Source: Pedobacter yonginensis (GTDB lineage: Bacteria > Bacteroidota > Bacteroidia > Sphingobacteriales > Sphingobacteriaceae). Taken from it: a DNA stretch of 64,000 nt. Positions 7,822 through 64,000 of this stretch are shown here, one piece after another. The stretch is from positions 124,001 through 188,000 of the forward strand of contig NZ_QGNZ01000002.1 of NCBI RefSeq assembly GCF_003173595.1, given 5' to 3'. Below the pieces are notes generated by a model, which made no database searches, had not been told where the DNA came from, and saw only the letters and a list, made by a program, of their open reading frames with translations. A program made the translations under genes and the position numbers. The stretch's first letter is position 1, and each line of letters starts with the position of its first letter.

Positions 7822-7830
7822 CCAAAAAAA

Positions 7831-7890: not shown

Positions 7891-8163
7891 CTATTCTGTT
7901 GCTGGCTTCTTTTCTTCTTCATCAACAGGGACTTCTACCGTTGGATCGGTAATAATTTCAGCCTTACCCTCGCCATCGCTCTTCGCAAATAAAATTGGGT
8001 ACAACAGCCATAATGCACCAATGATAATCAATACGCCGGCAAGCATCTCAAAATATATGCTTCCCTTCACTTCGTTGGCATCAAGAATTTTATAGGCTAT
8101 AAAAGAAAGCACGCCCAATACTAAAAGTAAAACTGCTTTCTGCAACTTGAGGAGCTTGATCAT
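7891..8163 (-). CDS. small two-helix membrane protein with acidic tail, 90 aa
   Basis: Begins MIKLLKLQKAVLLLVLG at 8163. Two hydrophobic segments (about residues 8-25 and 38-62) are followed by a charged C-terminal tail ending VPVDEEEKKPATE. The ATG at 8163 is favoured over upstream frame extension because it overlaps the stop of the preceding gene in an ATGA arrangement (8160-8163), a translational-coupling signature. I do not recognise a characterised family. Together with the 62-aa gene it forms a two-gene leftward unit, and both products are probably inner-membrane. Confidence 0.65.
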   Translation of the reverse strand: MIKLLKLQKAVLLLVLGVLSFIAYKILDANEVKGSIYFEMLAGVLIIIGALWLLYPILFAKSDGEGKAEIITDPTVEVPVDEEEKKPATE

Positions 8164-8348
8164 AGGATTTTCTTTTTTAATGTAATGATATGGAATAAAA
8201 CAAAGATTAATCCTATAAGTTCTAAAAGACCACAAAAATAAAAACCATACAGCACAAAATCTCGGCTGGCGGTATTCATCACAGCAAAAATTGGGAGCGC
8301 AACTACTGCTACAATCATCAATGTAAGCCCAATATTAAATAATTTCAT
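8160..8348 (-). CDS. small two-helix membrane protein, 62 aa
   Basis: Begins MKLFNIGLTLMIVAVVALP and has two hydrophobic segments with a basic C-terminus (HIITLKKKIL). The stop codon overlaps the start of the 90-aa gene by four bases, so the two are very likely co-translated. Family unknown. Divergent from ileS. Confidence 0.6.
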   Translation of the reverse strand: MKLFNIGLTLMIVAVVALPIFAVMNTASRDFVLYGFYFCGLLELIGLIFVLFHIITLKKKIL

Positions 8349-8350
8349 AG

Positions 8351-8358
8351 CAAAAGTA
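8351..8358 (-). promoter_or_regulatory. TAnnTTTG box upstream of the 62-aa gene
   Basis: Read on the minus strand, TACTTTTG ends only two bases before the ATG at 8348. If used, the transcript would be leaderless or would start inside the gene, so either the box is chance or the real start lies downstream (an internal ATG is the 11th codon). Confidence 0.3.
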
Positions 8359-8394
8359 TTTATGCCAAAACTACCGAAATTCAGCCATTTTTTT

Positions 8395-8402
8395 TAACTT
8401 TG
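8395..8402 (+). promoter_or_regulatory. probable -7 box of ileS
   Basis: TAACTTTG matches the Bacteroidota TAnnTTTG consensus and lies 29 bases before the ileS ATG. Confidence 0.45.
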
Positions 8403-8431
8403 CATCCTTAATTTTTTGAGGTACTTGATTG

Positions 8432-20788: not shown

Positions 20789-21080
20789 CGAAGGCATTTT
20801 GCGGAAATGATAAGACAATAGCGTTTATATTTTTTGGAAATGAACGTTAGTGAATCGTCGGGGGCAGCAGTCCCGCTCCCGCTTCTGCCCCAATGAAAAA
20901 TTGGGGCATCTCGCTTCGATCCCTTAGGGGCAGAAAGATTGATGCTTTTGGCTTGTTATATCAGTCCATTCAATTTAAACCCGACAGTAGCGGCAGCCCC
21001 GAGTTTTTCACGAGGGCTATAGCGTATGGCGGGACTGCTGTTCGCCAAGAAGTACAGACCGTTCATTTCCAAATCATCAT
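20788..21080. repeat. ~293-bp intergenic repeat, copy A
   Basis: Starts GCGAAGGCATTTTGCGG at the stop codon of the DUF4139 gene and ends AAATCATCAT. It contains two hairpin-forming segments (TGCCCCAATG ... TTGGGGCA; GGCAGCCCCGAG ... CGAGGGCT). It is nearly identical to copy B at 21111-21405. Short reading frames within it are not conserved between copies. Confidence 0.9.
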
Positions 21081-21110
21081 TAACATGCTTTACCTATTCA
21101 ATTCCTTAAA

Positions 21111-21405
21111 GCGAAGGCACTTTGCGGAAATGATAAGACGAAAGCGTTTATATTTTTTGGAAATGAACGTTGGTGAATAGTCGGGGGGCAGCAGCCCCGC
21201 TCCCGCCTTCTGCCCCAATGAAAAATTGGGGCATCTCGCTTTGATCCCTTAGGGGCAGAAAGATTGATGCTTTTGGCTTGTTATATCAGTCCATTCAATT
21301 TAAACCCGACAGTAGCGGCAGCCCCGAGTTTTTCACGAGGGCTATAGCGAATGGCGGGACTGCTGTTCGCCAAGAAGTAAAGACCGCTCATTTCCAAATC
21401 ATCAT
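21111..21405. repeat. ~295-bp intergenic repeat, copy B
   Basis: Direct repeat of copy A, 30 bases after its end, differing by scattered substitutions and a few one-base indels. Together the two copies occupy most of the 764-base gap. The 147 bases from 21406 to the next ATG hold no other feature I can recognise. Confidence 0.9.
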
Positions 21406-47171: not shown

Positions 47172-47455
47172 CTAAAAATCAGCAAAATATACAGCCAATA
47201 CTCATTTAGGGTGTTGGCTTTTTTTATTTGCCCTGATTTATGGTTTCACAGTGCTTTTTGTTTTTTGTTATGTGGTTCGTGAAGACACGAACCACGGCGG
47301 GGTGAAACTTATTTAATGAACTAACTAAAAATCAGCAAAATATACAGCCAATACTCATTTAGGGTGTTGGCTTTTTTATTTGCCCTGATTCGTGGTTTCA
47401 CAGTGCTTTTTTTGTCTTTTGTTATGTGGTTCGTGAAGACACAAACCACGGCGGG
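47150..47455. repeat. 153-bp tandem duplication including the end of the receiver gene
   Basis: The unit starting TGAAACTTATTTAATGAAC occurs at 47150 and again at 47303. The first copy covers the last seven codons plus stop of the receiver gene, its terminator and an inverted GTGGTTCGTGAAGACAC/GAACCAC element. The second copy repeats all of this with a handful of changes. Confidence 0.9.
47193..47226 (+). terminator. terminator of the receiver gene (first copy)
   Basis: AGCCAATAC and GTGTTGGCT form a stem (one G-T pair), followed by TTTTTTT. An equivalent copy lies about 153 bases downstream in the duplication. Confidence 0.75.
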
Positions 47456-47850
47456 ATGGTTTGCCATTGCCTTGCGTCGCTGTGCACTGGCCTTAGTAAA
47501 ATAAACCAGATTGAAACGGCAGCCCCCGATTTTTTCTATAGGGGCTACAGTGAAAAGCTGGACGAACATTAATAGATGCACTGCCCCTGCTTTACAAATT
47601 ATTTTCAGCACAAGTTTTATATTTATTTCCTTATTCATGAACACACAAACCACGGCGGGATGGTTTGCATTTGCCTGCTTCGCGGTGCACTAGCCTTAGT
47701 AAAATAAACCAGATTGAAACGGCAGCCCCCGATTTTTTCTATCGGGGCTACAGTGTAAAGCTGGACGAACCTTAATAGATCCACTGCCCCTGCTTTACAA
47801 ATTATTTCCAGCATAAGTTTTATACCCTTTTCGTTGTTAATGAACATACA
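47441..47850. repeat. 204-bp tandem duplication
   Basis: Units start ACAAACCACGGCGGGATGG at 47441 and 47645. Each contains ACCAGATTGAAACGGCAGCC, CCCGATTTTTTCTAT(A/C)GGGGCTACAG and CACTGCCCCTGCTTTACAAA. The GGCAGCCCC ... GGGGCTA core is related to the repeat at 20788-21405. The remaining 138 bases to the htpG ATG contain no gene I can support. Confidence 0.88.
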
Positions 47851-47988
47851 AACTACAGCGAGTATTTGTGAATACACCTACCAAAACGAAAGATGAGTAA
47901 TTGAAAAGTCTCTGTCAATTTGTCAAATAAGCGGCTTTGGAACAAGCCTTGTTATGCAGGTTATAGATTAAACAATTTATTTACACAT

Positions 47989-49967: not shown

Positions 49968-50462
49968 CTAGCTTGCTATCTGATCATCCTTCGCTTCAAC
50001 TTTGAAATAATCTTTATGTTCTTCGATCATTTTAGCAATGGTTGCAGCTTTGGTATCGGTAATTTTAAATTCAAACAATGGCTCTGAATTTTTTTTACTG
50101 TTTACCATTTTCTCTGTGTAAAAACGGTAAACTAAGCCATTGGTTAATAAACCATATTTGGCTTTTGTTTTACGGAAATATTTAGATAAGCGAGACTGCT
50201 GAATATCAAGGCTTTCGTTGTGGTGTTTACACTCTACTAAGATAGTAGGTTCGCCATCTTTCATTATTGTATAATCTACTTTTTTACTTTTCTTGATGCC
50301 AAAATCCAAAACGGCTTCTGATTGAACCTCTGAAGGGTCAAAACCTAAGATTTGAATAAATGGCATAACTAAAGCGTTCCGAGTAGAATCCTCTGTTTGA
50401 ACGGTTGGGAGCATTTTCTTAATTCTCACGGCAAATTGGCTTATTTCGTCTTTAAGTTCCAT
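49968..50462 (-). CDS. orphan HsdR N-terminal (PD-(D/E)XK) domain protein
   Basis: A 164-aa protein corresponding to only the N-terminal nuclease-fold domain of type I restriction HsdR subunits. The catalytic pattern is visible: RNALVMPFIQILGFDPSEVQ (~28-47), Asp in KKVDYTIMKDG (~75-85), then ExK in PTILVECKHHN (~88-98), and QSRLSKYFRKTKAKYGLLTNG. There is no helicase domain and no hsdM/hsdS nearby, so this is not a restriction system. Small stand-alone forms are widespread in Bacteroidota with unknown role. It is read away from the RiPP regulator gene, across a 391-base gap. Confidence 0.78.
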   Translation of the reverse strand: MELKDEISQFAVRIKKMLPTVQTEDSTRNALVMPFIQILGFDPSEVQSEAVLDFGIKKSKKVDYTIMKDGEPTILVECKHHNESLDIQQSRLSKYFRKTKAKYGLLTNGLVYRFYTEKMVNSKKNSEPLFEFKITDTKAATIAKMIEEHKDYFKVEAKDDQIAS

Positions 50463-50853: not shown

Positions 50854-51597
50854 ATGAATCTAAAATGCGTTGTTATTGACGATGAACAACATGCGATTGA
50901 GGTGTTAACTGACCACATAGCGGAAATGCCAGGTTTGAATTTGTTTAAAACCTTTACAAGTCCGATACAGGCGTTAACTGAAATAAGTACAGACGATGAA
51001 ATCGACTTGTTGTTCATGGATATTGATATGCCTGGAATTAACGGGATAGAGTTGGCTAAAAACATTAGGGAAAAAGCAAAGTACCTGATATTTACGACAG
51101 CTCACCCTGATTATGCGCTTCAGGCTTTTGATGTTCAATCCGATCAATACTTACTTAAACCGATTTCGTTTGCAAAGTTTGCACTCGGTATTGACAGAAT
51201 CTTGAAGAAAGAGGCTAATAATTCTAAAAATGCGACAAAAGATGCCGATCAGGTGGCTGCCTTATATATTAAAGGCGATCACAAATATGCGTTTTCTAAT
51301 ATCGCTATTGATGAGATTTTATACATCAAGGCGTTGCAAAACTATATTCAGATCATTACTAAAGGCGAAACGCATACGACCTACCTTACACTAAAAGAGA
51401 TTGAAAAGGCTTTAGAAACACATGCATTTATTCGCGTGAATAAATCAAACATTGTTGCTAAGTCGGCAATAAAGAAAGTTGATGGTAATATTATTCGTTT
51501 GGTTAATAACGAGATGATTCAGATTGGAGAGGGCTACAAAGAGGCATTCTTCGCTTACGTTCAGAATAGCTTGTTAAAATCTAACAGAAGCCAGTAG
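50854..51597 (+). CDS. LytTR-type response regulator
   Basis: A 247-aa response regulator. Receiver domain: KCVVIDDEQHAIEVLTDHI (~4-22), phosphoacceptor Asp in LLFMDIDMPGINGIEL (~residue 55), TTAHPDYALQAF, and Lys in YLLKPISF (~105). The LytTR DNA-binding domain (~135-240) shows IAIDEILYIKALQNYIQIIT, THTTYLTLKEIEKAL and FIRVNKSNIVAK. LytTR proteins bind paired direct repeats and pair with LytS/AgrC-like kinases; a LytS-type kinase lies at 53054. The decayed precursor copy begins 3 bases after the stop on the opposite strand. It is the likely regulator of the RiPP array. Confidence 0.93.
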   Translation: MNLKCVVIDDEQHAIEVLTDHIAEMPGLNLFKTFTSPIQALTEISTDDEIDLLFMDIDMPGINGIELAKNIREKAKYLIFTTAHPDYALQAFDVQSDQYLLKPISFAKFALGIDRILKKEANNSKNATKDADQVAALYIKGDHKYAFSNIAIDEILYIKALQNYIQIITKGETHTTYLTLKEIEKALETHAFIRVNKSNIVAKSAIKKVDGNIIRLVNNEMIQIGEGYKEAFFAYVQNSLLKSNRSQ

Positions 51598-51600
51598 CAT

Positions 51601-51756
51601 TTAAGATTTGTATGGAGTAGCTTCGGTTACAAGTGTCTGATTTGAATCAGATGCTGTTTTTGTGCCAAAGTTATTTAATGATTTTTGAGAATAAGAATCT
51701 TTTGGAACGAGAGAGGTTTGGACAAAGGGTAAATCCCTGCGCTTAAGAATTAAAAG
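51601..51756 (-). pseudogene. decayed eighth copy of the RiPP precursor
   Basis: In the frame ending with TAA at 51601-51603 the minus strand reads ...LVPKDSYSQKSLNNFGT and then KTASDSNQTLVTEATPYKS. This aligns with the intact precursors (LSKKT-x-F-x-YKS ... NNF-x-T, then SD-x-x-QT-x-VT-x-x-T), with a three-residue deletion before NNF. The frame is open back to a TAG at 51757-51759, but it has no ATG, GTG or TTG start, and many core residues differ. It lies where the next ~165-base array unit would fall. It is best read as a relic of a longer array, though a functional divergent copy fused to another frame is not excluded. Confidence 0.6.
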
Positions 51757-51893
51757 CTAAGAGCAAATGTTCCTAAAGTTACTTGAGTTTGGCTTTGATC
51801 AGAAATTGGGTTCGTAACAAAGTTATTTTGATACTTTACACTTTTGTAAACAAATACAGTTTTTTTAGATAGCTTGCTATTTTTAGTTTTCAT
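51750..51893 (-). CDS. RiPP precursor peptide, array copy 7 (47 aa)
   Basis: Starts MKTKNSKLSKKTVFVYKSVK and continues YQNNFVTNP, then ISDQSQTQVTLGTFALSF. The last member of the array differs by a Tyr in place of the usual Asp/Glu after the leader lysine, by MKTKNS at the start, and by a three-residue tail LSF instead of a single Ile. It contains no cysteine. The stop at 51750-51752 lies within a region that also opens the decayed eighth copy. Copy 7 is the most divergent intact copy, consistent with erosion at the promoter-distal end of the array. Confidence 0.88.
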   Translation of the reverse strand: MKTKNSKLSKKTVFVYKSVKYQNNFVTNPISDQSQTQVTLGTFALSF

Positions 51894-51917
51894 AATTCTT
51901 AAAATTAAAGCTAGTTA

Positions 51918-52058
51918 CTAAATTATTGCAAATGTTCCTAGAGTTACCTGAGTTTGGCTTTGATCAGAAATTGGGTTGGTAGCAAAGTTGCTTTGATCTT
52001 TGATGCTTTTGTAAACAAAGATGGTTTTTTTTGCAAGTTTAATGTTTTGAGATTTCAT
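51918..52058 (-). CDS. RiPP precursor peptide, array copy 6 (46 aa)
   Basis: Starts MKSQNIKLAKKTIFVYKSIK and continues DQSNFATNPI, then SDQSQTQVTLGTFAII. It follows the family pattern with an extra C-terminal Ile. No cysteine; Ser and Thr make up the core's modifiable residues. It is separated from copy 7 by 24 bases and from copy 5 by 24 bases. The spacer carries TTAGCT-like sequence but no Shine-Dalgarno. Confidence 0.9.
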   Translation of the reverse strand: MKSQNIKLAKKTIFVYKSIKDQSNFATNPISDQSQTQVTLGTFAII

Positions 52059-52082
52059 AGTATCGACGGGCGGAGCTAATTA

Positions 52083-52220
52083 TTAGATTGCAAATGTTCC
52101 TAAAGTTACCTGAGTTTGGCTTTGATCAGAAATTGGGTTGGTAACAAAGTTATTTTGGTCTTTAACGCTTTTGTAAACGAAGATCGTTTTTTTAGAAAGT
52201 TTAATATTTTGAGTTTTCAT
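52083..52220 (-). CDS. RiPP precursor peptide, array copy 5 (45 aa)
   Basis: Starts MKTQNIKLSKKTIFVYKSVK and continues DQNNFVTNPI, then SDQSQTQVTLGTFAI. This is the consensus of the short subtype (VTNP hinge). It differs from copy 4 by only two residues (Asp for Glu and Asn for Ser in the hinge). Cysteine-free. Substitutions between copies in the core codons are all synonymous, for example GTT/GTA for Val and ACT/ACC for Thr. Confidence 0.92.
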   Translation of the reverse strand: MKTQNIKLSKKTIFVYKSVKDQNNFVTNPISDQSQTQVTLGTFAI

Positions 52221-52245
52221 ATTATTAGTAGAGTGAAGCTAGTAA

Positions 52246-52383
52246 TTAAATTGCAAATGTTCCTAAAGTAACTTGAGTTTGACTTTGATCAGAAATTGGG
52301 TTGGTAACAAAGCTATTTTGTTCTTTAACGCTTTTGTAAACGAAGATCGTTTTTTTAGAAAGTTTGATGTTTTGAGTTTTCAT
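52246..52383 (-). CDS. RiPP precursor peptide, array copy 4 (45 aa)
   Basis: Starts MKTQNIKLSKKTIFVYKSVK and continues EQNSFVTNPI, then SDQSQTQVTLGTFAI. It is the first copy of the short subtype. The spacer to copy 5 (25 bases, reading TTACTAGCTTCA) is also nearly identical to the one before copy 4 itself, so the duplicated unit is gene plus spacer (163 bases). Cysteine-free. Confidence 0.92.
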   Translation of the reverse strand: MKTQNIKLSKKTIFVYKSVKEQNSFVTNPISDQSQTQVTLGTFAI

Positions 52384-52408
52384 GATATTGATAGATTGAA
52401 GCTAGTAA

Positions 52409-52555
52409 TTAAATTGCAAATGTTCCTAAAGTTACTTGAGTTTGGCTTTGGTCTGATACTGGATTTGTTCTTTCGAAATCGAAGTTGTTTTGATCTTTGA
52501 TGCTTTTGAAAACGAAGATGGTTTTTTTAGCGATTTTGATATTTTGAGTTGTCAT
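52409..52555 (-). CDS. RiPP precursor peptide, array copy 3 (48 aa)
   Basis: Starts MTTQNIKIAKKTIFVFKSIK and continues DQNNFDFERTNP, then VSDQSQTQVTLGTFAI. It belongs to the long subtype, which has three extra residues (FDFERTNP instead of FVTNP) between leader and core. Cysteine-free. The core amino acids match all other copies even though TCA/GAC replace TCT/GAT for Ser-Asp. Confidence 0.92.
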   Translation of the reverse strand: MTTQNIKIAKKTIFVFKSIKDQNNFDFERTNPVSDQSQTQVTLGTFAI

Positions 52556-52585
52556 GAGTTTAAAACTTAATGGTTACTAAATAAA

Positions 52586-52732
52586 TTATACTGCGAATGT
52601 GCCTAAGGTTACTTGAGTTTGACTTTGATCAGAAATTGGATTGGTTCTTTCAAAATCGAAGTTGTTTTGATCTTTAACACTTTTGAAAACGAATACAGTT
52701 TTTTTGGCAAGTTTGATGTTTTGAGTTGTCAT
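52586..52732 (-). CDS. RiPP precursor peptide, array copy 2 (48 aa)
   Basis: Starts MTTQNIKLAKKTVFVFKSVK and continues DQNNFDFERTNP, then ISDQSQTQVTLGTFAV. Long subtype like copies 1 and 3, with a Val at the C-terminus. Cysteine-free. It is 30 bases from copy 3 and 31 from copy 1. Confidence 0.92.
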   Translation of the reverse strand: MTTQNIKLAKKTVFVFKSVKDQNNFDFERTNPISDQSQTQVTLGTFAV

Positions 52733-52763
52733 GATTATTATAATTGAAAGGTTAATGTTTAAA

Positions 52764-52913
52764 TTAAATTGCGAATGTTCCTAAGGTTACTTGAGTTTGG
52801 CTTTGATCAGAAACTGGGTTTGTTCTTTCGTAACCGAAGTTGTTTTGATCTTTAACGCTTTTGTAAATGAATAAAGTTTTTTTTGCAAGTTTGTTAGTGT
52901 ATTCAGCTTTCAT
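52764..52913 (-). CDS. RiPP precursor peptide, array copy 1 (49 aa, promoter-proximal)
   Basis: Starts MKAEYTNKLAKKTLFIYKSV and continues KDQNNFGYERTNP, then VSDQSQTQVTLGTFAI. It is the first gene of the array, next to the divergent kinase promoter region. Its first seven residues (KAEYTN) differ from the other copies, while the leader core (KLAKKT-x-F-x-YKS) and the C-terminal core are conserved. It is cysteine-free. The leader's Leu-x-Lys-Lys-Thr-hydrophobic pattern resembles leaders of Bacteroidota class I lanthipeptide precursors; this is family knowledge rather than a search result. Six Ser/Thr (T-N-P, S, S, T, T, T) lie in the conserved core and could be dehydrated by the LanB at 54737. 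Confidence 0.92.
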   Translation of the reverse strand: MKAEYTNKLAKKTLFIYKSVKDQNNFGYERTNPVSDQSQTQVTLGTFAI

Positions 52914-53053
52914 TGTAATTATTTTAAAATTTTTAATTCGTTGTTGTTATCTGATGTAAAGGTGCAACTCCTAAATACCTACTACCATTTTTTTACACAA
53001 ACACCTAGTTTTAGAAGATAAAAGGCCTAATAAAATAGATAAAAAGCAATAAA
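52914..53053. promoter_or_regulatory. divergent promoter region of precursor array and kinase
   Basis: A 140-base spacer between the array start (minus) and the kinase ATG (plus). It contains TTTTTTTACACAAACACC followed by TAGTT (52988-53010). That is an exact 11-base match (AACACCTAGTT) plus T-run context to the region upstream of the LytTR regulator. A second related half-site on the minus strand (TAGGTATTTA) lies 26 bases from TAGGTGTTTG. No clear TAnnTTTG box was found. Confidence 0.5.
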
Positions 53054-54169
53054 ATGAAAATTTCTACTCTCAGTAATTTCTTTAAACAGTATAGACTTCA
53101 CTTCCTTATTTGGGGTATTTATATTATTTATGAGTCTGTTATTTTGTCGTTAGCCTCGCTGAAGTTCAGACCTCTTGGGGTTTACGTATTAATATACTTC
53201 ACGAACATACTCTCCTTCTATGTATATGCTTATTTGCTTAATAAGGTACTCAATATAAAATCTCGTTTTAGCGCATTGGGAATTCCCCTACTGATTATCT
53301 TGGTAAGTGGCTTTTATGTCTTCTTAAGCTTTGGCCTAGGCATTTTATTTGTAAAACTTGGCTTTTTCGAATCGACCAGGCCAATGAATTTAGATCACGA
53401 ATTTATCTTTAGCTGCATTTTTAGAGCCTTATATTACATTGGAATTGCTACAGGTTATGTTTACCTCATAAAATCATTAGAAGAGCGGAAGAAAGTAGAA
53501 CAACTTGAAAGACAAAGTTTAGTTACTCAGATTGAAAAGCAAGCATTGGAAAACGATTTGGTTCAATCGCAAAATAATTTCTTAAGGAGCCAAATTAATC
53601 CACATTTCTTATTCAATACGCTGAATTTCATCTACAACGATGCGCGTAAAAAAGCTCCAATGGCGGCTGATGCCATTATGAACTTATCTGAAATGATGCG
53701 TTATGCCTTGAAACGCCCGGAGGCTTCGGAATTGGTGCCACTAAGTGAGGAGATTGAGCAAATTGAGCACCTGATTAACCTACACAAACTGCGTACGGCC
53801 AATTTACTTAACGTAGAATTACAAATTAATGGCGATTTATTTGGTCTTCGCTTTCCGCCTTTAATTATGCTAACCTTGGTTGAGAACATTTTTAAACATG
53901 GAAATATCGCACATTCTACCCAACCTGCTATTATTTCGGTTGATTATCATGGCAACCACTTAAATATAAAAACCATTAATATGGTTAATGATGTAAAGAG
54001 TAAAAAAGTAGAAAGCCATCATGTAGGTATAGAAAATATCCAAAAACGACTAAATAATTTTTATAAAGACAACTTCGAGTTTAAATATTACACCGATCAG
54101 CAGAACAGATACATTACCGAAATTAATGTTACTGTGGTTAATTTGATGGCTAATTTGAACATTAATTAA
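53054..54169 (+). CDS. LytS/YehU-type sensor histidine kinase
   Basis: A 371-aa membrane kinase of the His_kinase (PF06580) type. Four predicted TM segments occupy residues ~12-145. A coiled linker (LEERKKVEQLERQSLV) follows, then the phosphoacceptor motif LRSQINPHFLFNTLNFIYND (His ~185), the N-box in LTLVENIFKHGNIAH (~275-289) and a G-box in HVGIENIQKRLNNFY. These kinases pair with LytTR regulators. The partner is almost certainly the regulator at 50854, on the other side of the precursor array. The membrane sensor lacks a large extracytoplasmic domain, as expected for kinases sensing small peptides or membrane state. Peptide sensing is inference. Confidence 0.92.
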   Translation: MKISTLSNFFKQYRLHFLIWGIYIIYESVILSLASLKFRPLGVYVLIYFTNILSFYVYAYLLNKVLNIKSRFSALGIPLLIILVSGFYVFLSFGLGILFVKLGFFESTRPMNLDHEFIFSCIFRALYYIGIATGYVYLIKSLEERKKVEQLERQSLVTQIEKQALENDLVQSQNNFLRSQINPHFLFNTLNFIYNDARKKAPMAADAIMNLSEMMRYALKRPEASELVPLSEEIEQIEHLINLHKLRTANLLNVELQINGDLFGLRFPPLIMLTLVENIFKHGNIAHSTQPAIISVDYHGNHLNIKTINMVNDVKSKKVESHHVGIENIQKRLNNFYKDNFEFKYYTDQQNRYITEINVTVVNLMANLNIN

Positions 54170-54736: not shown

Positions 54737-57541
54737 TTAATTGGCCATTGCGTTTCTGCGTTGAACATCTTTCAACAGGTAATAATACATAACCATTTCG
54801 TGGGTGCGCTGATCTTTATTAAACAGGCGATTAACGTGCATGTGCATTAAATCGCTAAACAAGCTCATTCTTTTATTTGGCTCTGCCTGCTTTAAAACGG
54901 CTACGAAAGATTGCGAAAATAGCTCAAAATGGCTTGCCTGATCGGGACTTAACTCCATAGATGCTCCCTTGCGATACAATTGATATTGGGTGTTTAGTTT
55001 TTTAAAGTCGGTAGCATCGAGGTTATGCTCATTGTTATAGGAATCTGAAAATAGCTTAATCATTTTAGCGAAATCCTTTGTATCGAATATTTCAGCTTGA
55101 TTAATTTTATCTGCCACATCCGAACACAATTTATATTTGGTAAAAGCATCTGGTTGGGCTTGCAAAAGCGAGATTACATAATTGCTGTCTGCTCCGAAAT
55201 GAGTTTCTACTTGTGCAATTAAATCATTTCCGTAGCGTTGTGTTTCGCGTTTATAGGTTCTAATTTGAAAATCGGATACGAGGCCAACTTTTAAATCATC
55301 ATCTAAATAATTAGAAAGAGCGGTTGTTAATGCTTGCCCTTGGCCTACATCGTGTAGCAAGAGCCTTAACCTTAAATGATTTCCATTTTCGTTGTAGCGG
55401 ATGAAAAACCACGATTTAATGTCTTGCTCGTGGGTTTCTAAAAAGTAACTGATTACACCAATCAGCATTTCATCCGACCGTTGCTGGTGGCAATAAATTT
55501 CGAAATAAAGCCACTCGCTGCCCGGCGGAAAGTATTGTTGAACGTGTGTTGATGCTGAGTTTTCTACCAAATTGGCTGGGGCATAAATTTGGCTTTCTTG
55601 ATAGAGATTGAGTATAAATTGGGCTAAATATGGTTTACCATCTTCATCAACCACTGGGCTACTTTCTGGCAAAATTACCTCTTCCAAGTACACGCTCTTT
55701 TGTTTTTGCATGTATTGTATCAATGCGTTGATATCCTCATCGTTGGCTAAGTTAAAACATAAGGTTTGATCGGAAGCGCCGGCTTTAAAACAATTTGATA
55801 CACCCAGATTTGTAAGATAAGTTCGGCATTGTGCTAATGTAAGTTGTTCATTTTTAGCTGGAAAGATGGCTTCTTTTTTTACACGCCATTTTGCCCTACT
55901 TAAGGAGATATTATGAAAATGTAGTGGTGGATAGTAATCCAAATTTGGGAATATGGCATCTAAGGGGATATTCAAATTGCTTGCGATTTCTTGATGTTGT
56001 AAATCGCAGAGCAAACGAAAGATAGAAAGATCTGAGCGGCTGTAGTTATATGCCGATGCCATTTTCGGCACCATTCTTTTATTCAGTTTTTTTGATCGAA
56101 GTATTATTTCTGATCCTCTAACAGAAATCATTATGTCGTTTAACAACAGAGGCTCGGCTGATGTATCGTAATTTAAAATAGAAAGCTGCTGCCCATAAAT
56201 TATCTTTCTTCTGTTGATGTTATCTACCGTGGCCTCGACCATGTAGGCCACATCAAAAAACAAAACATCCGGATTTGCTTTTTGCTCTATTTCTGCTATT
56301 AACTTACTGTGCTGCTCTACTTCGGCATTTGCCATTGTAAACCGACCACTTAAGCCGTTTGCTGTTATGCCCCCAACCTGATCTACACATAATTGATCAT
56401 CGGCTATCGACATTAACATACTGAAGGTATTGGGCAATTTAGCAGGTTTTTCGCTCAGTTTAAACGCCAGTTTGTTTAGGTAAATTGGCTTCCCTTGTTC
56501 AAAGGATTCTTGATTTAGGGTTTTGCCCAATGTGGATTTTAGGTTTTCTCCCTCTTTAGTTTTTTCAGCTTGCTTGTTGCTAAATTGAGCTACAAAATCA
56601 TCGCTTTGATCGGCTTGCTCCAATTCATCGTATCCAACGCCCATTTCCGGATCAAGTGCAATTAAAAGCGAAACCTCTTTTTGCTCGAACTTTTTCTTAA
56701 ATCTATTTTTAAATTTCTGAAGGGCTTCTTTTTCGTTGTTGGGTATGATTTGCTGTAACAGTTGGATTAAACTGGGTACATGTTGCAACAATCTTTCTTC
56801 TATTTGCCCAGCTTTGGCTTTGCGTTCTGCTATGATATATCTTGGCAACCCTGTATCGGAAAAACCAATTCTTTTAAAATAATCTTCGCCTAATATATTT
56901 GGATCGTGATCTGTAAACAGGAGTTGAAGATCGCGCATATCTGCAAGAAGATTTAGAAAGGATTGGTGCTCATCTTCTTGAATACCCATTGTTTGTTCCA
57001 ATTCTTGTACACTGATGGGCTTTAAACAGGCTTCTAAAACCTTTTGCACAAATACATCTTGATTAATTTCTGCCAGTTCGAATAATCCATCGGTACAGGC
57101 AATGTAGCGCAAGCTGTTGGAAGTTGGGTAGTAACTACTGTTGCTAAACAATAAACAATTTTTGGCAAGCAGTTCTGCTACGGAGTAGGATACATTATTT
57201 TTTTGAGGCCAATCGATAAACGAATGTTCTTGTTGGTGGGCTTCAATTAGGATTTTATCGGCATTAAATTTTACCGCATTTTTTAGCAGGCTAAAACTTG
57301 CAAACGTACCATATGGTGTTGAGCGAAATTTTGCTCGGTTGAAATATTTCCAAATGGTAAAAACAATTTTTGGTGGTAGGTTTGGTATTTCATCGGCCTT
57401 TACATCTTTAATGGTCTCGTAAAATGCTTCCGACGAGATGGATATGGCTTGTTTAAGTTCATCCCAACAGGCCGAAATATCTGATTGATACGAGAATTTT
57501 GGTGTTCTGAAAATGGCAGTTGGGTGTATATTGATATTCAT
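54737..57541 (-). CDS. full-length LanB-type lantibiotic dehydratase
   Basis: A 934-aa protein. The N-terminal part (~1-640) matches the Lant_dehydr_N glutamylation domain: opening PTAIFRTPKFSYQS, then KFRSTPYGTFASFSLL and SARGSEIILRSKKL-like region (VRGSEIILRSKKLNKRMVPK, ~478-497). The C-terminal part (~670-930) matches the SpaB_C elimination domain: WLYFEIYCHQQRSDEMLIG, WFFIRYNENGNHLRLRLLLH (~705-724) and ETQRYGNDLIAQVETHFGAD. Such enzymes glutamylate Ser/Thr of a precursor using glutamyl-tRNA and eliminate to dehydroamino acids. ATG at 57541 (MNINIHPTAIF) is chosen because the longer frame runs through a terminator. Its likely substrates are the seven cysteine-free peptides at 51750-52913; no LanC cyclase is nearby. 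Confidence 0.88.
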   Translation of the reverse strand: MNINIHPTAIFRTPKFSYQSDISACWDELKQAISISSEAFYETIKDVKADEIPNLPPKIVFTIWKYFNRAKFRSTPYGTFASFSLLKNAVKFNADKILIEAHQQEHSFIDWPQKNNVSYSVAELLAKNCLLFSNSSYYPTSNSLRYIACTDGLFELAEINQDVFVQKVLEACLKPISVQELEQTMGIQEDEHQSFLNLLADMRDLQLLFTDHDPNILGEDYFKRIGFSDTGLPRYIIAERKAKAGQIEERLLQHVPSLIQLLQQIIPNNEKEALQKFKNRFKKKFEQKEVSLLIALDPEMGVGYDELEQADQSDDFVAQFSNKQAEKTKEGENLKSTLGKTLNQESFEQGKPIYLNKLAFKLSEKPAKLPNTFSMLMSIADDQLCVDQVGGITANGLSGRFTMANAEVEQHSKLIAEIEQKANPDVLFFDVAYMVEATVDNINRRKIIYGQQLSILNYDTSAEPLLLNDIMISVRGSEIILRSKKLNKRMVPKMASAYNYSRSDLSIFRLLCDLQHQEIASNLNIPLDAIFPNLDYYPPLHFHNISLSRAKWRVKKEAIFPAKNEQLTLAQCRTYLTNLGVSNCFKAGASDQTLCFNLANDEDINALIQYMQKQKSVYLEEVILPESSPVVDEDGKPYLAQFILNLYQESQIYAPANLVENSASTHVQQYFPPGSEWLYFEIYCHQQRSDEMLIGVISYFLETHEQDIKSWFFIRYNENGNHLRLRLLLHDVGQGQALTTALSNYLDDDLKVGLVSDFQIRTYKRETQRYGNDLIAQVETHFGADSNYVISLLQAQPDAFTKYKLCSDVADKINQAEIFDTKDFAKMIKLFSDSYNNEHNLDATDFKKLNTQYQLYRKGASMELSPDQASHFELFSQSFVAVLKQAEPNKRMSLFSDLMHMHVNRLFNKDQRTHEMVMYYYLLKDVQRRNAMAN

Positions 57542-57654: not shown

Positions 57655-59646
57655 CTATTTTTTTGTAACCTTAAACTCTGTGCGCCTGTTTTTGGCTCTA
57701 CCTTCCGGGTTATCTTTTCCTTTTTTAAGGGTATTGGGTGCGATGGGCATTTTCTCGCCGTAGCCTTTTGATGTCATACGTGAGGCGGATATGCCTTTGG
57801 TTACTAAATAATCTACACAAGACTGTGCTCTTTTTTCGGATAATTCCTGATTGTACTCCTCCTTACCCACATCATCCGTATGGGCGCCTAATTCGATTTC
57901 CATTTCGGCATTATCTTCCATAATGGTGGCCAAGGCATCCAAAACCTTTTTCGAGGGTTCGGTTAAATCTGCACGATCAAATTCGTAATACACGTTATCC
58001 AATACGATGGGAATATTGATTTTGAATGGGCTAATGCAGTAATCTTTATGGATTAAAGTATCGGCCTTGGCCAACTCTTCGAAAGGATAATTTTTGGTGA
58101 TGGAGAAATAATTATCTTTTGCAAAAGCCAATTTTATTGGTCGTTTTCGATCTACTTTAAAACTATACATACCGGATGCATTTGTTCTGATTCTTTGATC
58201 ACCCTCGTAATTACTAAGCGTTACGGTTGCATCGGCCATGGGTTTGTTGGTTTTACAATCGTTAAGTACGCCACTAAGGGTAAAGTATTCTTTTTTAACT
58301 TCGAAAATTTCTAAACAGCAGGATGATTCTCGATCTGAGCTGATGTACCCGCGGTTTCCTTGGGCATCTATCGGGGTAAAATAAACATCGTCTTTAGATG
58401 AATTGAAAGGATAACCCATATTTTTGGGTTTCGACCAAGTGATTAAATCGCCTTCTGACTCGAAGAAATCCAATCCACCCAAACCAATTCTTCCATCGGT
58501 ACTAAATAATAGCTTTTTGGTTACCACATTATAGTATGGTGCCCTTTCGTCATCTTCTGAATTGATGGTTTCGCCTAAGTTAACAGGCTGCCCTAATGAT
58601 CCATCATTCCGAATAACGCAATACCACAAATCGAACTTCCCAAATCCTCCGCTTCGATCAGATGAAAATAGCAGAAACTTTCCATCGCTGGTTACAAAAG
58701 GTTGCATGGCATTAAAATCTTTGCTATTTACCTGTAAGCCTAAGGGCTGAGGGTCTGACCAATTATTGCCCGATTTTTTTGAACTGTATATGGCGTATTT
58801 TTCTTTGTCGCGCCAAGCGGTAAAGTAAACGGTGTTTCCATCTGGGCTAAAAGTTGTCGCAGCAACTTCCATATCTTTTGGTAGGTTAATACCCATCATT
58901 TTTACCGAAATTTCTCCCTCAACAGCACTATTTTTTGCGCTATAAATATTGTTGATGAATGGATTTGCTTTAGTTGAAACTTGAACCTGTCCATTTTCTG
59001 TTTTCACAATATCTTTTTTACCGGCAATGGAAATGGGTCTTGACGATGTGAAATAGATTTCGTTATTGAATCTATATGGCGCATAGTTAGATCCTAAGCC
59101 ATTAACTTTGTTGGGCATTTTGTTAATTTGCTCCATTCTGGGGAAACGCATTTCTTCAATTGCAAATTTGCTTGAAAGAATTGCCTTCTGAGCATCTTTA
59201 GCTAAAACATCGCCGTTATTTTTCTGAATAAATTTTTCATAAGCGGCAATGGCTTCGTTGAATTTTCGGTTAGCCCTCAGGCTTTCGGCATACCAAAAAA
59301 GTGCTTTTCTATATCTGGTATTGGTAAAGGTTATGGCGATGCCGTAATATTTTTCTGCTTCAGAAAATTCCTTATACATCCGACTAGATTCTGCCAAATT
59401 GTAAATAGCGCCTTCGTAATCTTCTATCACTTTATCATCGCTAGTGGCTTTACGTTCTTTACCATAGGGCAAAATGGCCTGGGTACTGTCGCTGGTAATT
59501 TTTAAGGCCTTTTTATAAAAGGTAGATGCGGCATAGTAATCCTTATTTTCGAAATATGTATCAGCAACTTTTTTATAGTTTACCACAAACTGTGCGTTTG
59601 CCAAACTGCTATATGCTACCAATAAAATGATTAAAATTTTTCTCAT
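57655..59646 (-). CDS. TPR-PD40-OmpA family protein (T9SS-associated)
   Basis: A 663-aa protein. Signal peptide LIILLVAYSSLANAQ. N-terminal TPR-like helices (~25-150) are followed by WD40-like PD40 beta-propeller repeats (FSPDGNTVYFTAW, VTSDGKFLLFSSDRSGGFGKFD, ~265-440). A CarboxypepD_reg-like beta-sandwich (~450-520) and a C-terminal OmpA domain (LGAHTDDVGKEEYNQELSEK and SKGYGEKMPIAP) close it. This is the domain order of PorE-like proteins that link T9SS partners to peptidoglycan. It is last of a three-gene operon with a PorP/SprF-like protein and an adhesin. Confidence 0.9.
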   Translation of the reverse strand: MRKILIILLVAYSSLANAQFVVNYKKVADTYFENKDYYAASTFYKKALKITSDSTQAILPYGKERKATSDDKVIEDYEGAIYNLAESSRMYKEFSEAEKYYGIAITFTNTRYRKALFWYAESLRANRKFNEAIAAYEKFIQKNNGDVLAKDAQKAILSSKFAIEEMRFPRMEQINKMPNKVNGLGSNYAPYRFNNEIYFTSSRPISIAGKKDIVKTENGQVQVSTKANPFINNIYSAKNSAVEGEISVKMMGINLPKDMEVAATTFSPDGNTVYFTAWRDKEKYAIYSSKKSGNNWSDPQPLGLQVNSKDFNAMQPFVTSDGKFLLFSSDRSGGFGKFDLWYCVIRNDGSLGQPVNLGETINSEDDERAPYYNVVTKKLLFSTDGRIGLGGLDFFESEGDLITWSKPKNMGYPFNSSKDDVYFTPIDAQGNRGYISSDRESSCCLEIFEVKKEYFTLSGVLNDCKTNKPMADATVTLSNYEGDQRIRTNASGMYSFKVDRKRPIKLAFAKDNYFSITKNYPFEELAKADTLIHKDYCISPFKINIPIVLDNVYYEFDRADLTEPSKKVLDALATIMEDNAEMEIELGAHTDDVGKEEYNQELSEKRAQSCVDYLVTKGISASRMTSKGYGEKMPIAPNTLKKGKDNPEGRAKNRRTEFKVTKK

Positions 59647-59697
59647 CTCTATCGATTTATTTATTTGATGATTGTTTTTGTTACCTCTTATATTGAA

Positions 59698-60699
59698 CTA
59701 TAATCGTGGGCAAAAGAAGTTTGGTCCAATAATTCCATTTCTGCCAATAAGCGATATGGAAAGTTCCAAACCTCCGTTGCTATTAGAAGCACGCTGAAAA
59801 GTGGAGGTATTTACATCGTAACTTAATCCAAAAACCATGTTCTTTAATTGCAGGCCCACAAAAGCGATAGCTGCATCTTTAACCCGATAATTGCCTCCGA
59901 ACAGGATATTGGATGAATTATTTACGTTTAGCTGGGCATAAGCACCCACAGAAACTTCATTTGTATTGCCTTGATACATCACTAATGCATTTGGCACAAT
60001 ATCCAACAATTCGGATGCGCGCACCCTTGCCCCGCCATGTGCTGTAAACCGAATTGGCGTTTTACCGTTGTAACCTGTAAAGCGTTCTGTTGGTCGGTTT
60101 AAATGTGCCGCACTAACACCTGCGAAGATATTTACACTTTGATTTGGATTGCCATCAAAAAACATAACCCCTGCGTTTACATCGGGCACAAAAGATGAGG
60201 TTGATGAGAAGGTTTCCCCACTCATCATGCCGCCATCATAACCTGTAATCGGGTTGAACTGATTACCGAAACGAGCCTGAGAGAAATCAAAACTTCTATT
60301 TACAAAACCGGCTTGCAAGCCGAAACTAAACATCTGCAATCCCTCCACACCAAACCTTAATCGATATGAACCCGAAACCAAGGCGCTTAAATAATTAAAA
60401 TCCAATTCACCGGCTCTTTGATTGAGGATGGTTACCCCAAAAGCAAAGTTTTTAATGGGTGCCAAATCAAATGACGCCCCTCCTGTTAAAAAAGAACTGT
60501 TTAGCGCAGCCCATTGCTGTTTAAAATTTACCGATGCTCGATAATCGCCATCAATTACACCTGTTAATGCTGGGTTTAGCCAAAGTGGATAGGCATAATA
60601 TTGTGAGAAATGTGGATCTGTTTGTGCAATTGATTTCGATGCGCATAGCACTATGCCGATTATAATTGCATATATTTTTAAAGCCGATAGTATTTTCAT
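59698..60699 (-). CDS. PorP/SprF-family outer membrane protein
   Basis: A 333-aa beta-barrel protein. Signal peptide KIYAIIIGIVLCASKSIAQ. The family opening TDPHFSQYYAYPLWLNPALTG (~27-47) and the C-terminal sequence FGLSYDVNTSTFQRASN are diagnostic of PorP/SprF. In Flavobacterium, SprF is needed for secretion of the adhesin SprB. Such genes typically sit next to proteins with a gliding-motility type C-terminal domain, as here. It lies 51 bases from the OmpA-type gene and 40 from the adhesin. Confidence 0.92.
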   Translation of the reverse strand: MKILSALKIYAIIIGIVLCASKSIAQTDPHFSQYYAYPLWLNPALTGVIDGDYRASVNFKQQWAALNSSFLTGGASFDLAPIKNFAFGVTILNQRAGELDFNYLSALVSGSYRLRFGVEGLQMFSFGLQAGFVNRSFDFSQARFGNQFNPITGYDGGMMSGETFSSTSSFVPDVNAGVMFFDGNPNQSVNIFAGVSAAHLNRPTERFTGYNGKTPIRFTAHGGARVRASELLDIVPNALVMYQGNTNEVSVGAYAQLNVNNSSNILFGGNYRVKDAAIAFVGLQLKNMVFGLSYDVNTSTFQRASNSNGGLELSISLIGRNGIIGPNFFCPRL

Positions 60700-60739
60700 G
60701 GTTTGTAGTTTTTCGATTTATAAATTAATCCGATCGTGG

Positions 60740-63700
60740 TTATCTTATTAAGGTTACTGTCCCCTTTTTCATCACACTTGTACCATCTGCAAATTTCACA
60801 TCAACGATGTACACATACACACCTACAGGTTGATTAACGCCTTTGAAGGTTCCATCCCATCCATTTGCTACGTTATCTGATTGATAAATTAACTGTCCCC
60901 ACTGGGTGTAAATGGTCATTCGGGCACTGGCGATGGTATTTCCATAAATTAGGAAGAGGTCGTTCTTTCCATCATTATTCGGCGTGAAAATATTTGGGAT
61001 GTAAATCTCATTGCCCAGCGGGTTAGTGGCCTTGCCTGTAAAAGGTGCAGAATTTGCACTGGTTTGACAGTCAATTTGACCCTTTGCCCGAACAATCAAG
61101 GTTACACTCTGATCTGGTTTTAAGCCTGAAACTAAAAAGGTTGTACCTGCAGAGCCTGATGTTGGGGCTTGCCAACTTAAGCCGTTATCTGTTGATACTT
61201 CATAAGCGATTGCGCCTGATATTGCTGGCCATCCGAACGTGATGCTATTGGATGTTATTGCTTGAACGGACACTACTGGCCTATCCAACACTGGCAACAC
61301 ATTAACGGTTACTGCGGTTCTTGTTGGACTCGAACAACCGCCTAAGGCAACGCTTTCTACATAATAGGTTGTGGTGCTTGTTAAAGTTGGCGTGGTAAAA
61401 GTTACACCTTCTGCTAAAAATGCCCCACCAGAACTCGAAGCATACCATCTGTAAATCAGGTTGGCTAAAGGATTGTTCACGGTCAATATGGCTGTACTGC
61501 CTGAGCAGATTGGACTACTATTAACCGTTACTGAGCTTGGTGCAACAGGTACCGGTAGTGGCGAAACATTTACTGCTGTTCGTGATGTTGAGATACAAGA
61601 ACCAGACGCCCCCTCTACGTAGTAGGTTACATTTGCTGTTATGGCTGGAGTGGTAAATGTTGTGCCAGTAGCCACTAATGTTCCTCCTGTAGCGGTTGTG
61701 TACCAGTTGTAAACAACCCCCGATTGTGGAGTGGACACGATTAAAATTGTCGAACTGCCTGTGCAGGTACTTACATTATTTGCTGAAACCGCTGGTACAT
61801 TAGGCCTTGGATTAACGACTACCGTAACCTGAACTCTAGCGCTAGCCGTATTACAACCTGTTGCGTTAACTGCATTTACATAATAAGCTTTGGTTGCACT
61901 TAATGCAGGCGTAGTATAAGTTGTTCCAGTAAATAGCAAATTACCTCCTGTTGCTGCATCATACCATTCGTAGGTTATGCCTGCTTGTGGGTTTTGGATG
62001 GAGAGTGATGTAGCCTCGCCAGCGCAGATGTTGGTGCCTGTTGTTGATACAATAGGGTTTGATGGCAAGGCATTGACTGTAACACTTACCACTTTTGCAT
62101 TACCTGGTGCATTTTCACATTTATTATCCCCTTTCACGGTAACGTAGTATGTGGTATTTACACTTAAGTTTGGCGTTACAAATGTTGCGCCTATAAACGA
62201 TACATTGGTTAATGCAGCATCGGTGTACCAGGTAAATACAGGGTTGGTAACAGTTGGCGAACTGGCAGTTAAAGTGGTTGATGATCCGGCACAAATTACG
62301 GCATTATTGGCAATAATATCAGTTGTAGAGGCCAATGGATTAACCGTTACCGTTACCACCTTAGCGTTTGCTGGAGTGTTTTCGCACTTATTTGCACCCC
62401 TAACCGTTACGTAATAATTTGTAGTGGTGGTAACTGGAACCGTAAATGTTGGCCCTGTAAACACAACGTTTGTTAATGAAGCATCGCTATACCAAGTGAA
62501 GATTGGCTGTGTTACCGTTAAGCTTGATGCCATTAATACCGCTGAAGTGCCCGAACAGATTTGAGCATTGTTTAGGGTAATATCGGCCGCTGTGGCAAAG
62601 GCCTTAACTGTTACCGTTACAACTTTTGCATTGCTTGGCGCATTTTCACATTTATTATCGCCTTTTACCGTAACGTAGTATGTTGTGCTTACATTAAGAA
62701 TTGGTGTATTAAACGTTACACCAACAAAGGCTACAGTGGTTAAGCTTGCATCACTGTACCAAGTAAATACTGGATTATTAACCGTTGAGCTTGAAGCGGA
62801 TAAAACTGTTGATGAACCTTGGCAAATGGTTGTATTTCCACTTGCGGAGATGTCAGCATCTGTTGCTGAAGGATTAACCGTGACGGTGATTGCCTTAGCC
62901 GTAGCACTCGTATTTTCGCATCGGTTATCTCCTTTTACAGTTACATAATAGGTTGTGTTGGAAGATAAAACAGGGGTTGAAAATATTGACCCAACGTAAG
63001 CTACAGTGGTTAAGCCTGCATCACTGTACCAGGTAAATATTGGATTGATCACCGTAGTTGAGCTGGCGGTAAGCGTTACAGATGAACCTCCACACAATGT
63101 TGTGGCTCCCGATAAATTAATGTCTGAAGCCCCAGCAACAGGATTTATTGAGATGGTTACTTCTGCTGCATTACCAGCCGTATTGGCGCATTTATTGGAT
63201 CCGTTAACGGTAACATAGTATTTAGTGGTTGCTGAAATTGCCGGCGTTGTATATACTGGGCCTGTAAATACAGTTGTTGTTAAGGCTGCATCGCTATACC
63301 AAGTAAATATTGGATTGTTAACTGTTGTACTGCTTGCTGTAAGTACAGCGACTCCCGATGTGCACAATGACGTATTTCCATTGATGGAAACATCTGATGC
63401 AGTTGCGGATGGGTTAACGGTAATCGAAATTTTTGTGCGCGCAGGATTTGTACAACTTGTGCCGCCAGCATTTACCGCTTCTACGTAATAATCATATATT
63501 CCGGGCGCTAGTGAAGCTGAAGTGGTGAAACTGCTATTGTTACTTACCAACAAATTTCCGGCCGTTGGCGCATCGTACCAATTATAAACTACACCACTAC
63601 TGGCTTGAACACTTAATGTTGCAGGGGTGCCAATACAAGTTGTTAATGGGTTTCCTAGAGTAGGAACTGGTGGGGCTGGCGGGGCCACAACAGTTATTGT

Positions 63701-64000
63701 AATTACCGCTCCAGCCGTTTCGCAACCATTTGCGGTTGCTGTAACGGTGTAGTTATAACTTCCTGCGGCTAAACTCGCATCCGTTGTAAAGGTTGGCCCA
63801 TCTTTACCCGCTTGGTAAGTTGTACCCAGATACCATTTATAGTTAAGGTTAGCTTGAGGGTTTTGAACACTTAATACGGCGGATGTTCCTTCACAAATAT
63901 TGTTCACCGAGGCTTGAACCGTTGGAACAGGAATTGTTCTTTGGGCATAATTTAGATTTACAGAAGTTAATGCACCTAAAAGCCCTGAATTCAATCGAAG
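60740..64000 (-). CDS. Ig-repeat adhesin with gliding-motility C-terminal domain (5' end cut by window)
   Basis: At least 1086 residues are visible; the start lies beyond the right edge, because the frame remains open through base 64000. Ten Ig-like modules of ~86-90 residues follow each other, each starting around (N/S)-x-(I/S)C-x-G-x-S and ending -x-x-VTVNP. Modules 3-7 are closely related (NP-x-FTWYSDA, TTYYVTVKGDNKCEN). A fibronectin-III-like module (SITFGWPAISGAIAYEVSTD) follows, then the type B T9SS sorting domain (YIPNIFTPNNDGKNDLFLI ... GWDGTFKGVNQPVGVYVYIV). It is probably a cell-surface adhesin exported by T9SS with the PorP/SprF protein encoded next. Confidence 0.92.
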   Translation of the reverse strand, partial: LRLNSGLLGALTSVNLNYAQRTIPVPTVQASVNNICEGTSAVLSVQNPQANLNYKWYLGTTYQAGKDGPTFTTDASLAAGSYNYTVTATANGCETAGAVITITVVAPPAPPVPTLGNPLTTCIGTPATLSVQASSGVVYNWYDAPTAGNLLVSNNSSFTTSASLAPGIYDYYVEAVNAGGTSCTNPARTKISITVNPSATASDVSINGNTSLCTSGVAVLTASSTTVNNPIFTWYSDAALTTTVFTGPVYTTPAISATTKYYVTVNGSNKCANTAGNAAEVTISINPVAGASDINLSGATTLCGGSSVTLTASSTTVINPIFTWYSDAGLTTVAYVGSIFSTPVLSSNTTYYVTVKGDNRCENTSATAKAITVTVNPSATDADISASGNTTICQGSSTVLSASSSTVNNPVFTWYSDASLTTVAFVGVTFNTPILNVSTTYYVTVKGDNKCENAPSNAKVVTVTVKAFATAADITLNNAQICSGTSAVLMASSLTVTQPIFTWYSDASLTNVVFTGPTFTVPVTTTTNYYVTVRGANKCENTPANAKVVTVTVNPLASTTDIIANNAVICAGSSTTLTASSPTVTNPVFTWYTDAALTNVSFIGATFVTPNLSVNTTYYVTVKGDNKCENAPGNAKVVSVTVNALPSNPIVSTTGTNICAGEATSLSIQNPQAGITYEWYDAATGGNLLFTGTTYTTPALSATKAYYVNAVNATGCNTASARVQVTVVVNPRPNVPAVSANNVSTCTGSSTILIVSTPQSGVVYNWYTTATGGTLVATGTTFTTPAITANVTYYVEGASGSCISTSRTAVNVSPLPVPVAPSSVTVNSSPICSGSTAILTVNNPLANLIYRWYASSSGGAFLAEGVTFTTPTLTSTTTYYVESVALGGCSSPTRTAVTVNVLPVLDRPVVSVQAITSNSITFGWPAISGAIAYEVSTDNGLSWQAPTSGSAGTTFLVSGLKPDQSVTLIVRAKGQIDCQTSANSAPFTGKATNPLGNEIYIPNIFTPNNDGKNDLFLIYGNTIASARMTIYTQWGQLIYQSDNVANGWDGTFKGVNQPVGVYVYIVDVKFADGTSVMKKGTVTLIR

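Follow-up and report, generated by a model that had tools for sequence, protein, structure and literature searches.

The precursor array and its neighboring genes

The window analyzed here is a stretch of 64,000 nucleotides from Pedobacter yonginensis (contig NZ_QGNZ01000002.1, positions 124,001 to 188,000). It carries a tandem array of seven short genes for cysteine-free peptides which, judging from the comparisons given below, are very likely precursors of ribosomally synthesized and post-translationally modified peptides (RiPPs) acted upon by a LanB dehydratase. The array lies between the genes of a LytTR-type response regulator and of a histidine kinase with four predicted transmembrane helices (4-TM), and the LanB gene is found beyond the kinase. 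We put at roughly 55% the probability that the peptide is modified by LanB, in a pathway devoid of LanC, and is the signal for its cognate two-component system, with a logic resembling those of nisin and agr. The features of the locus are as follows:

50854-51597, plus strand: LytTR-type response regulator (receiver and LytTR domains), convergent with the array
51600-51747, minus strand: eighth copy, decayed and start-less, core-like SDSNQTLVTEATPYKS (reading of the sequence plus a weak profile match)
51750-51893, minus strand: precursor gene 7, 47 amino acids
51918-52058, minus strand: precursor gene 6, 46 amino acids
52083-52220, minus strand: precursor gene 5, 45 amino acids
52246-52383, minus strand: precursor gene 4, 45 amino acids
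52409-52555, minus strand: precursor gene 3, 48 amino acids
52586-52732, minus strand: precursor gene 2, 48 amino acids
52764-52913, minus strand: precursor gene 1, 49 amino acids, array start
52914-53053, no strand: intergenic region common to the divergent array and kinase, 140 bp, with two conserved blocks; candidate promoter/LytTR site
53054-54169, plus strand: histidine kinase (four predicted N-terminal helices and PF06580), divergent from the array
54737-57541, minus strand: LanB dehydratase, full-length (Lant_dehydr_N and Lant_dehydr_C)

The seven open reading frames (ORFs) follow each other head to tail on the minus strand (51750-52913), each with an ATG start and a stop codon, and encode 45 to 49 amino acids. 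Their starts are 162 to 181 nucleotides apart, with gaps of 24 to 31 nucleotides between ORFs, and Tandem Repeats Finder described the array as a 163-nucleotide unit in 6.7 copies (score of 1094). All seven copies have the leader K[LI][AS]KKTxFx[YF]KS and the same 14-residue core, SDQSQTQVTLGTFA, and none of the seven contains a cysteine. Except for the repeat-finder result, these characteristics had been described in the original prediction, made from the DNA alone, and were all verified, as was its claim that synonymous-only variation of the core reveals selection on the peptide: 10 of the 14 core codons vary between copies and every change is synonymous (synonymous differences, pS = 0.37; nonsynonymous differences, pN = 0.00), which supports purifying selection on the core. 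The constraint is looser in 15 leader codons (pS = 0.53; pN = 0.094). The same prediction was wrong in expecting up to six losses of 18 Da from the core, since only five serines and threonines are present there and a sixth loss would need a residue preceding it. The leader (KLxKKTxFVYKS) lacks the double-glycine (GG) cleavage motif. Annotation of the precursors as a known family was discarded, the matches of those tested to NCBIfam and Pfam being no better than chance. Downstream of the array (about 51600-51747, minus strand), the decayed eighth copy has lost its start codon, ends in SLNNFGTKTASDSNQTLVTEATPYKS followed by a stop, and is matched weakly by the profile (E = 0.63; 51622-51690).

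Judging from its relatives, the LanB gene probably starts at the ATG at 57541; a TTG at 57643 is the start of the listed ORF. Its product carries the Pfam domains PF04738 and PF14028 and aligns with NisB across both. The equivalents of NisB R83, R87, R784, R786, R826, and H961, which we take to be the catalytic residues, do not vary among the 14 divergent module LanBs compared, with the NisB numbers counted on the 4wd9 alignment rows and the R83/R87 stretch aligned by motif with a weak score. The predicted model (predicted local distance difference test [pLDDT] of 84) matches MadB, NisB, and MibB over its full length. We therefore consider the protein a predicted full-length class I dehydratase with glutamylation and elimination domains. 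The model of the kinase shows four N-terminal helices followed by the dimerization/histidine phosphotransfer and catalytic ATP-binding domains (pLDDT of 81; predicted template modeling score of 0.45), and its kinase part matches many kinases in the PDB, with the cytoplasmic domain of AgrC at rank 3. The only genes that separate the regulator from LanB in the window are those of the precursors and the kinase; no transporter, protease, or immunity gene is found there. The precursors had been described as adjacent to LanB. The dehydratase gene does belong to the locus, but it does not share a transcription unit with the array, as the plus-strand kinase gene (53054-54169) stands in between.

Conservation of the unit in Pedobacter and other genomes

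Matches to a profile of the precursors were obtained in 46 of the 301 family genomes, that of P. yonginensis included. Five weak matches (E values of 1e-4 to 0.008; genomes G233, G275, G299, G216, and G237) were left outside the first 40 relatives, and all of them except G216 were added later. The order and orientation of regulator, precursor(s), 4-TM kinase, and LanB were constant in all 40 relatives fetched first. Synteny extended further in 39 of them, all with HtpG and an HsdR-N-like gene on one side, and the flanks of these syntenic loci consist of housekeeping genes; an OmpA ortholog at least 70% identical was found within 20 kb in 28 of the 39. The regulator is 88 to 99% identical in these 39 relatives. 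The remaining locus, L084, has another neighborhood and lower identities (LanB, 37%; kinase, 33%; regulator, 35%). The 40 loci encode 111 precursor ORFs (98 distinct), from one to seven per locus, with a single gene in 14 loci; cysteines occur in only 4 of the 111, all in locus L078. The region separating array and kinase is also conserved: among 41 aligned intergenic regions, the block TGTAAAGRTGC (52955-52965) is kept in 38 (the exceptions being L069, L079, and L084) and the block TTTTTACACA (within 52989-52999) in 36. The use of TGTAAAGRTGC to delineate a regulon was abandoned, as its 9 sites in the genome, versus 2 for the reversed control, rest on too few bases to be interpreted.

We then considered 145 Pedobacter genomes, in which precursors were matched at E ≤ 0.001 (88 genomes) and LanB at E ≤ 1e-30 (115 genomes, of which 104 have a module-type LanB after removal of 11 whose matches were all weaker or of the long type). 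Both genes were found in 85 genomes, LanB only in 19, the precursor only in 3, and neither in 38 (Fisher's exact test, P = 3e-17, a value that overstates independence since the genomes are related, and that counts 85 genomes in which adjacency was not verified one by one). The original prediction had named arrays that always lack a LanB gene as the observation that would speak against it; only 3 of the 88 precursor-bearing genomes lack a module-type LanB. Two of these three are assemblies 78 to 80% complete, and in the third, G362, the sole LanB is of the long type. All 19 genomes with LanB only have a candidate peptide gene by the kinase and regulator genes, 12 detected with a looser profile threshold and 7 by eye; in one of them, G167, the candidate adjoins a regulator remnant.

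At larger distances, profile A2 had matches in 75 of the 400 genomes examined from the order and in 4 of the 395 from the phylum. The lone match outside the family (G442, locus L118) was judged to be due to chance, its 3-kb region having no kinase, regulator, or LanB. LanB was found in 33 of 40 genomes chosen for a weak or absent precursor match. In 38 regions around mostly short-type LanBs, the precursor was recognized by profile in 29 and a candidate by eye in 7; region L245 has neither precursor nor module LanB. Kinases initially missed in the diverged regions were found on reexamination in 12 of 12 loci. These diverged loci have LanBs 27 to 43% identical to that of the window, and lie in different neighborhoods and genera. 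Their precursors have a leader resembling [LI]xxxTxF[VI][YF]K, often followed by DPT[TS], and a threonine-rich tail. In one subgroup, the kinase and regulator genes form a pair with the peptide gene outside it, and most of these peptides have a cysteine near their end. Pfam searches on proteins sampled from diverged loci recovered the expected domains: PF06580 (three kinases), LytTR (two regulators), and the two LanB domains (one LanB). The LanB tree includes 70 sequences from the window and from the short-type loci that were fetched; 68 of them group in a single clade (support of 0.996), apart from 11 long LanBs that were picked by length and of which only L002 was checked for a LanC neighbor; the LanBs of L212 and L244 fall outside the short-type clade.

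A set of named genomes corresponds to the best 80 of 166 relatives of the LanB, mostly from Pedobacter, with others from Mucilaginibacter, Olivibacter, Taibaiella, a Sphingobacterium metagenome-assembled genome (MAG), and Bacteroidetes MAGs; the closest LanBs are those of Pedobacter paludis (81% identity) and Pedobacter fastidiosus (80%). Using profiles of the kinase and regulator built from our earlier loci, we found the regulator in all 80 loci, the kinase in 78, and the precursor in 75. No LanC was found in these 80 loci by phmmer with the LanC of the P. yonginensis genome as single query. Kinase, regulator, and precursor were all found in 74 loci; the precursor lies between the other two in 73 of these, and in all 74 it is encoded on the opposite strand from the kinase. 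The motif [DN]P[TSIV] occurs in 118 of the 150 precursors detected by profile in the named loci. A single precursor gene was found in 17 of the 45 loci with LanB 52 to 81% identical and in 30 of the 30 diverged loci with a profile match. The seven copies are hence a side feature of the unit, many relatives being single-copy, and the proposal that many genes serve dosage retains only a secondary place.

Weaker second matches of the profile led to 12 more regions, ten of which, including two in the genome of P. yonginensis, show a regulator-precursor-kinase unit with no LanB nearby (L142, one of the ten, has no visible regulator). The other two, L141 and L147, run off contig ends, so that LanB could lie beyond. 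The genomes inspected for these units also carry a module LanB. Such units indicate an association of the peptide with the kinase/regulator pair that does not depend on LanB. They were rejected as proof of modification in trans, since the 7 genomes without LanB among the 40 mentioned above are too few, six of them having no precursor match and G216 a truncated weak one. The stable unit is peptide, kinase, and regulator, usually with LanB.

Given the conserved leader, the synteny, and the co-occurrence with LanBs in which the catalytic residues are retained, the window peptides are very likely LanB-type RiPP precursors. To this extent the original prediction holds, but it had overlooked the flanking LytTR regulator and 4-TM kinase, the lack of LanC, and the covariation of core and sensor described next.

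Core-sensor covariation and the proposed signaling role

Distances were computed for the window and the 39 syntenic loci, excluding L084. The core is the most divergent part (mean pairwise distance of 0.59), followed by the kinase sensor (0.54), LanB (0.38), the leader (0.29), the kinase domain (0.17), TolC (0.16), the regulator (0.07), and HtpG (0.05). Core distances correlate with those of the sensor (r = 0.76), and with those of the kinase domain (r = 0.65), TolC (0.61), and LanB (0.58). The partial correlation of core and sensor is 0.74 given HtpG, 0.65 given LanB, 0.61 given the kinase domain, and 0.59 given TolC. Divergence of peptide and sensor around a regulator that hardly changes is, by analogy, the pattern of peptide pheromone systems.

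Together, the fixed gene order, the co-occurrence, the catalytic residues, the covariation of core and sensor, the units devoid of LanB, and the promoter blocks point to peptide signaling. LanB would bind the conserved leader KLxKKTxFVYKS and dehydrate serines and threonines of the cysteine-free core by glutamylation and then elimination. With no LanC step, this would yield a dehydro-peptide free of lanthionine, presumably exported and cleaved by unlinked machinery. The adjacent 4-TM kinase may sense this product as a species-specific signal and phosphorylate the LytTR regulator, which probably binds the promoter region shared by array and kinase, providing feedback, in addition to other targets. 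In the lineage of the window, multiplication of the precursor would raise the dosage of the signal. More tentatively, and at somewhat less than even odds, these loci may form a family of Bacteroidota RiPP pheromones in which LanC-less dehydration by LanB makes the signal, species-specific 4-TM kinases read it, and one LanB acting in trans serves several channels per genome. Its range would cover Pedobacter, Mucilaginibacter, and Olivibacter, with Taibaiella and the Sphingobacterium MAG represented by peptides seen by eye only.

Several observations weigh against signaling by a LanB-modified peptide. Kinases often have fast-diverging membrane sensor domains, and the correlation of core and sensor has no unrelated-kinase control; moreover, the permutation test leaves some shared ancestry in it. 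Given HtpG, the core also remains correlated with the kinase domain (0.61), TolC (0.58), LanB (0.53), and the regulator (0.41), and its correlation with the kinase domain given the sensor is still 0.37. The unit encodes neither an exporter nor a leader peptidase, and units without LanB require modification in trans or none. One locus (L211; genome G334, contig 1, about 3.35 Mb) has a module-type LanB, a kinase, and a regulator with no recognizable peptide gene, the kinase of L305 and L306 was not found by profile, and in several loci the peptide, most often found by eye only, lies beyond the kinase-regulator pair. Finally, nisin combines antibiotic and inducer in one peptide. According to an excerpt of PMC5266694, NisK detects nisin and controls its synthesis.

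The main rival, which we regard as unlikely but serious, is an autoregulated bacteriocin or antifungal: the dehydrated peptide would mainly be a weapon, with the two-component system limited to inducing it in the way that NisRK induces nisin. LanB enzymes are chiefly known for antimicrobial products, and a weapon could equally account for species-specific cores and for arrays of several copies. An extract of PMC3091789 places the lanK/lanR pair in lantibiotic clusters. Helper genes could be unlinked or lie in the flanks, those of the diverged loci having been clustered and identified in part. Yet genes for transport, proteolysis, or immunity are missing from the window between regulator and LanB, the single-query search found no LanC in the 80 module loci, the syntenic loci have housekeeping flanks, the module LanB is as widespread as 104 of 145 Pedobacter genomes, and peptide-kinase-regulator units persist without LanB.

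The lack of an exporter in the window unit and of a GG motif in the leader would also fit a peptide that never leaves the cytoplasm and acts directly on the neighboring kinase to modulate it, with LanB either modifying it or simply being coregulated. Its pairing with the kinase and position between kinase and regulator agree with such a role, which is improbable because the core correlates better with the membrane sensor (r = 0.76) than with the cytoplasmic kinase domain (r = 0.65). A conventional class I lanthipeptide, or another RiPP, cyclized by enzymes encoded elsewhere is a decidedly poor candidate: the genome does have one LanC, located beside its other LanB and a Cys-rich GG-leader peptide, and some relatives have a cysteine near the C terminus, but lanthionine is impossible within the Cys-free window peptides and the single-query phmmer search returned no LanC in the 80 module loci. 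A noncoding repeat array or untranslated remnants, which the decayed copy at the array end might evoke, were rejected on the core substitutions (pN = 0 versus pS = 0.37); the reading frame, leader, and linkage are also conserved over a long range.

Relation to known systems and other observations

The proposed signaling unit shares with the nisin and subtilin systems (LanABC plus LanRK) a LanB acting on a leader peptide and the grouping of peptide, kinase, and regulator in one locus. It differs from them by the absence of LanC, transporter, protease, and immunity genes between regulator and LanB, by its Cys-free core, and by its presence in Bacteroidota. Like agr (AgrBDCA), it has a small precursor by a polytopic kinase and a LytTR regulator, and it combines a variable peptide and sensor with a conserved regulator, as measured here and as generally known for agr. 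In contrast to agr, it has LanB in place of the AgrB protease and no thiolactone cysteine; gene order and strands also differ. The window unit shows the encoded leader-core precursor next to a modifying enzyme that defines RiPPs. From class I lanthipeptide clusters it has LanB, with neither LanC nor core cysteines, and from agr-type systems it has neither the AgrB-like membrane protease nor the thiolactone cysteine.

With the class I lanthipeptides of Bacteroidota, such as the pinensins and PedA15.2 of Pedobacter lusitanus (named in the consulted portion of PMC12328550), the unit shares phylum, LanB family, and a short basic leader. According to an excerpt of PMC7268733, the leaders of Bacteroidetes lanthipeptides have the motif LxLxKx5L and end in GG. 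Unlike them, the window leader (LxKKTxFVYK) has neither, the unit has no LanC or cysteine, and its LanB clade is separate from the 11 sampled long LanBs. The genome of P. yonginensis (4.37 Mb in 14 contigs) offers an internal contrast, since it encodes two LanBs and the second is found on contig 12 in the vicinity of a Cys-rich GG-leader peptide and of the sole LanC of the genome, which is the classical class I arrangement of Bacteroidota.

Among the matches listed from the open full-text literature, subscription papers being outside reach, we found no description of a LanB/LytTR peptide unit in Bacteroidota. The unit looks like an undescribed peptide signaling system of this phylum. If so, Bacteroidota would gain a genetically encoded peptide signal, LanB without LanC would acquire a clear role, and the naturally varied pairs of core and sensor would allow direct tests of specificity.

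No peptide of the window family was seen among the ATG-initiated ORFs beside the other seven PF06580 kinases of the genome, except for a GG-type relative in locus L256. There (4149-9202 of the locus; contig 10, about 310.1 to 315.2 kb), a PF06580 kinase, an S41 peptidase, and two Rce1/CAAX-like membrane proteases are found with a peptide carrying both the leader motif KKTAFVFK and a GG site, and with two further GG-leader peptides. L256 is possibly a second peptide/kinase locus, of GG type.

In six loci whose peptide has a cysteine near its end (L305, L306, L307, L310, L311, and L315), a SusD-type gene lies within 6 kb. The SusD-type cluster occurs in 9 of 35 diverged loci and was confirmed with Pfam in L307; SusC-like and TlpA-like neighbors were recognized, from their sequence, in some Cys-peptide modules. 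An outer-membrane SusCD-type pair near these modules could be a target or an importer.

In the window, genes for OmpA-family, PorP/SprF-like, and large repeat proteins (57655-63994; names from reading the sequence) adjoin LanB, the first on that side being 11 nucleotides from the listed LanB ORF. At 49968-50462, an HsdR N-terminal-like protein of 164 amino acids is encoded, with no other restriction gene noticed adjoining it. Further tandem repeats of the window are located at 3787-4294 (period of 105/125 nucleotides), 20783-21405 (325 nucleotides), and 47430-47860 (203 nucleotides).

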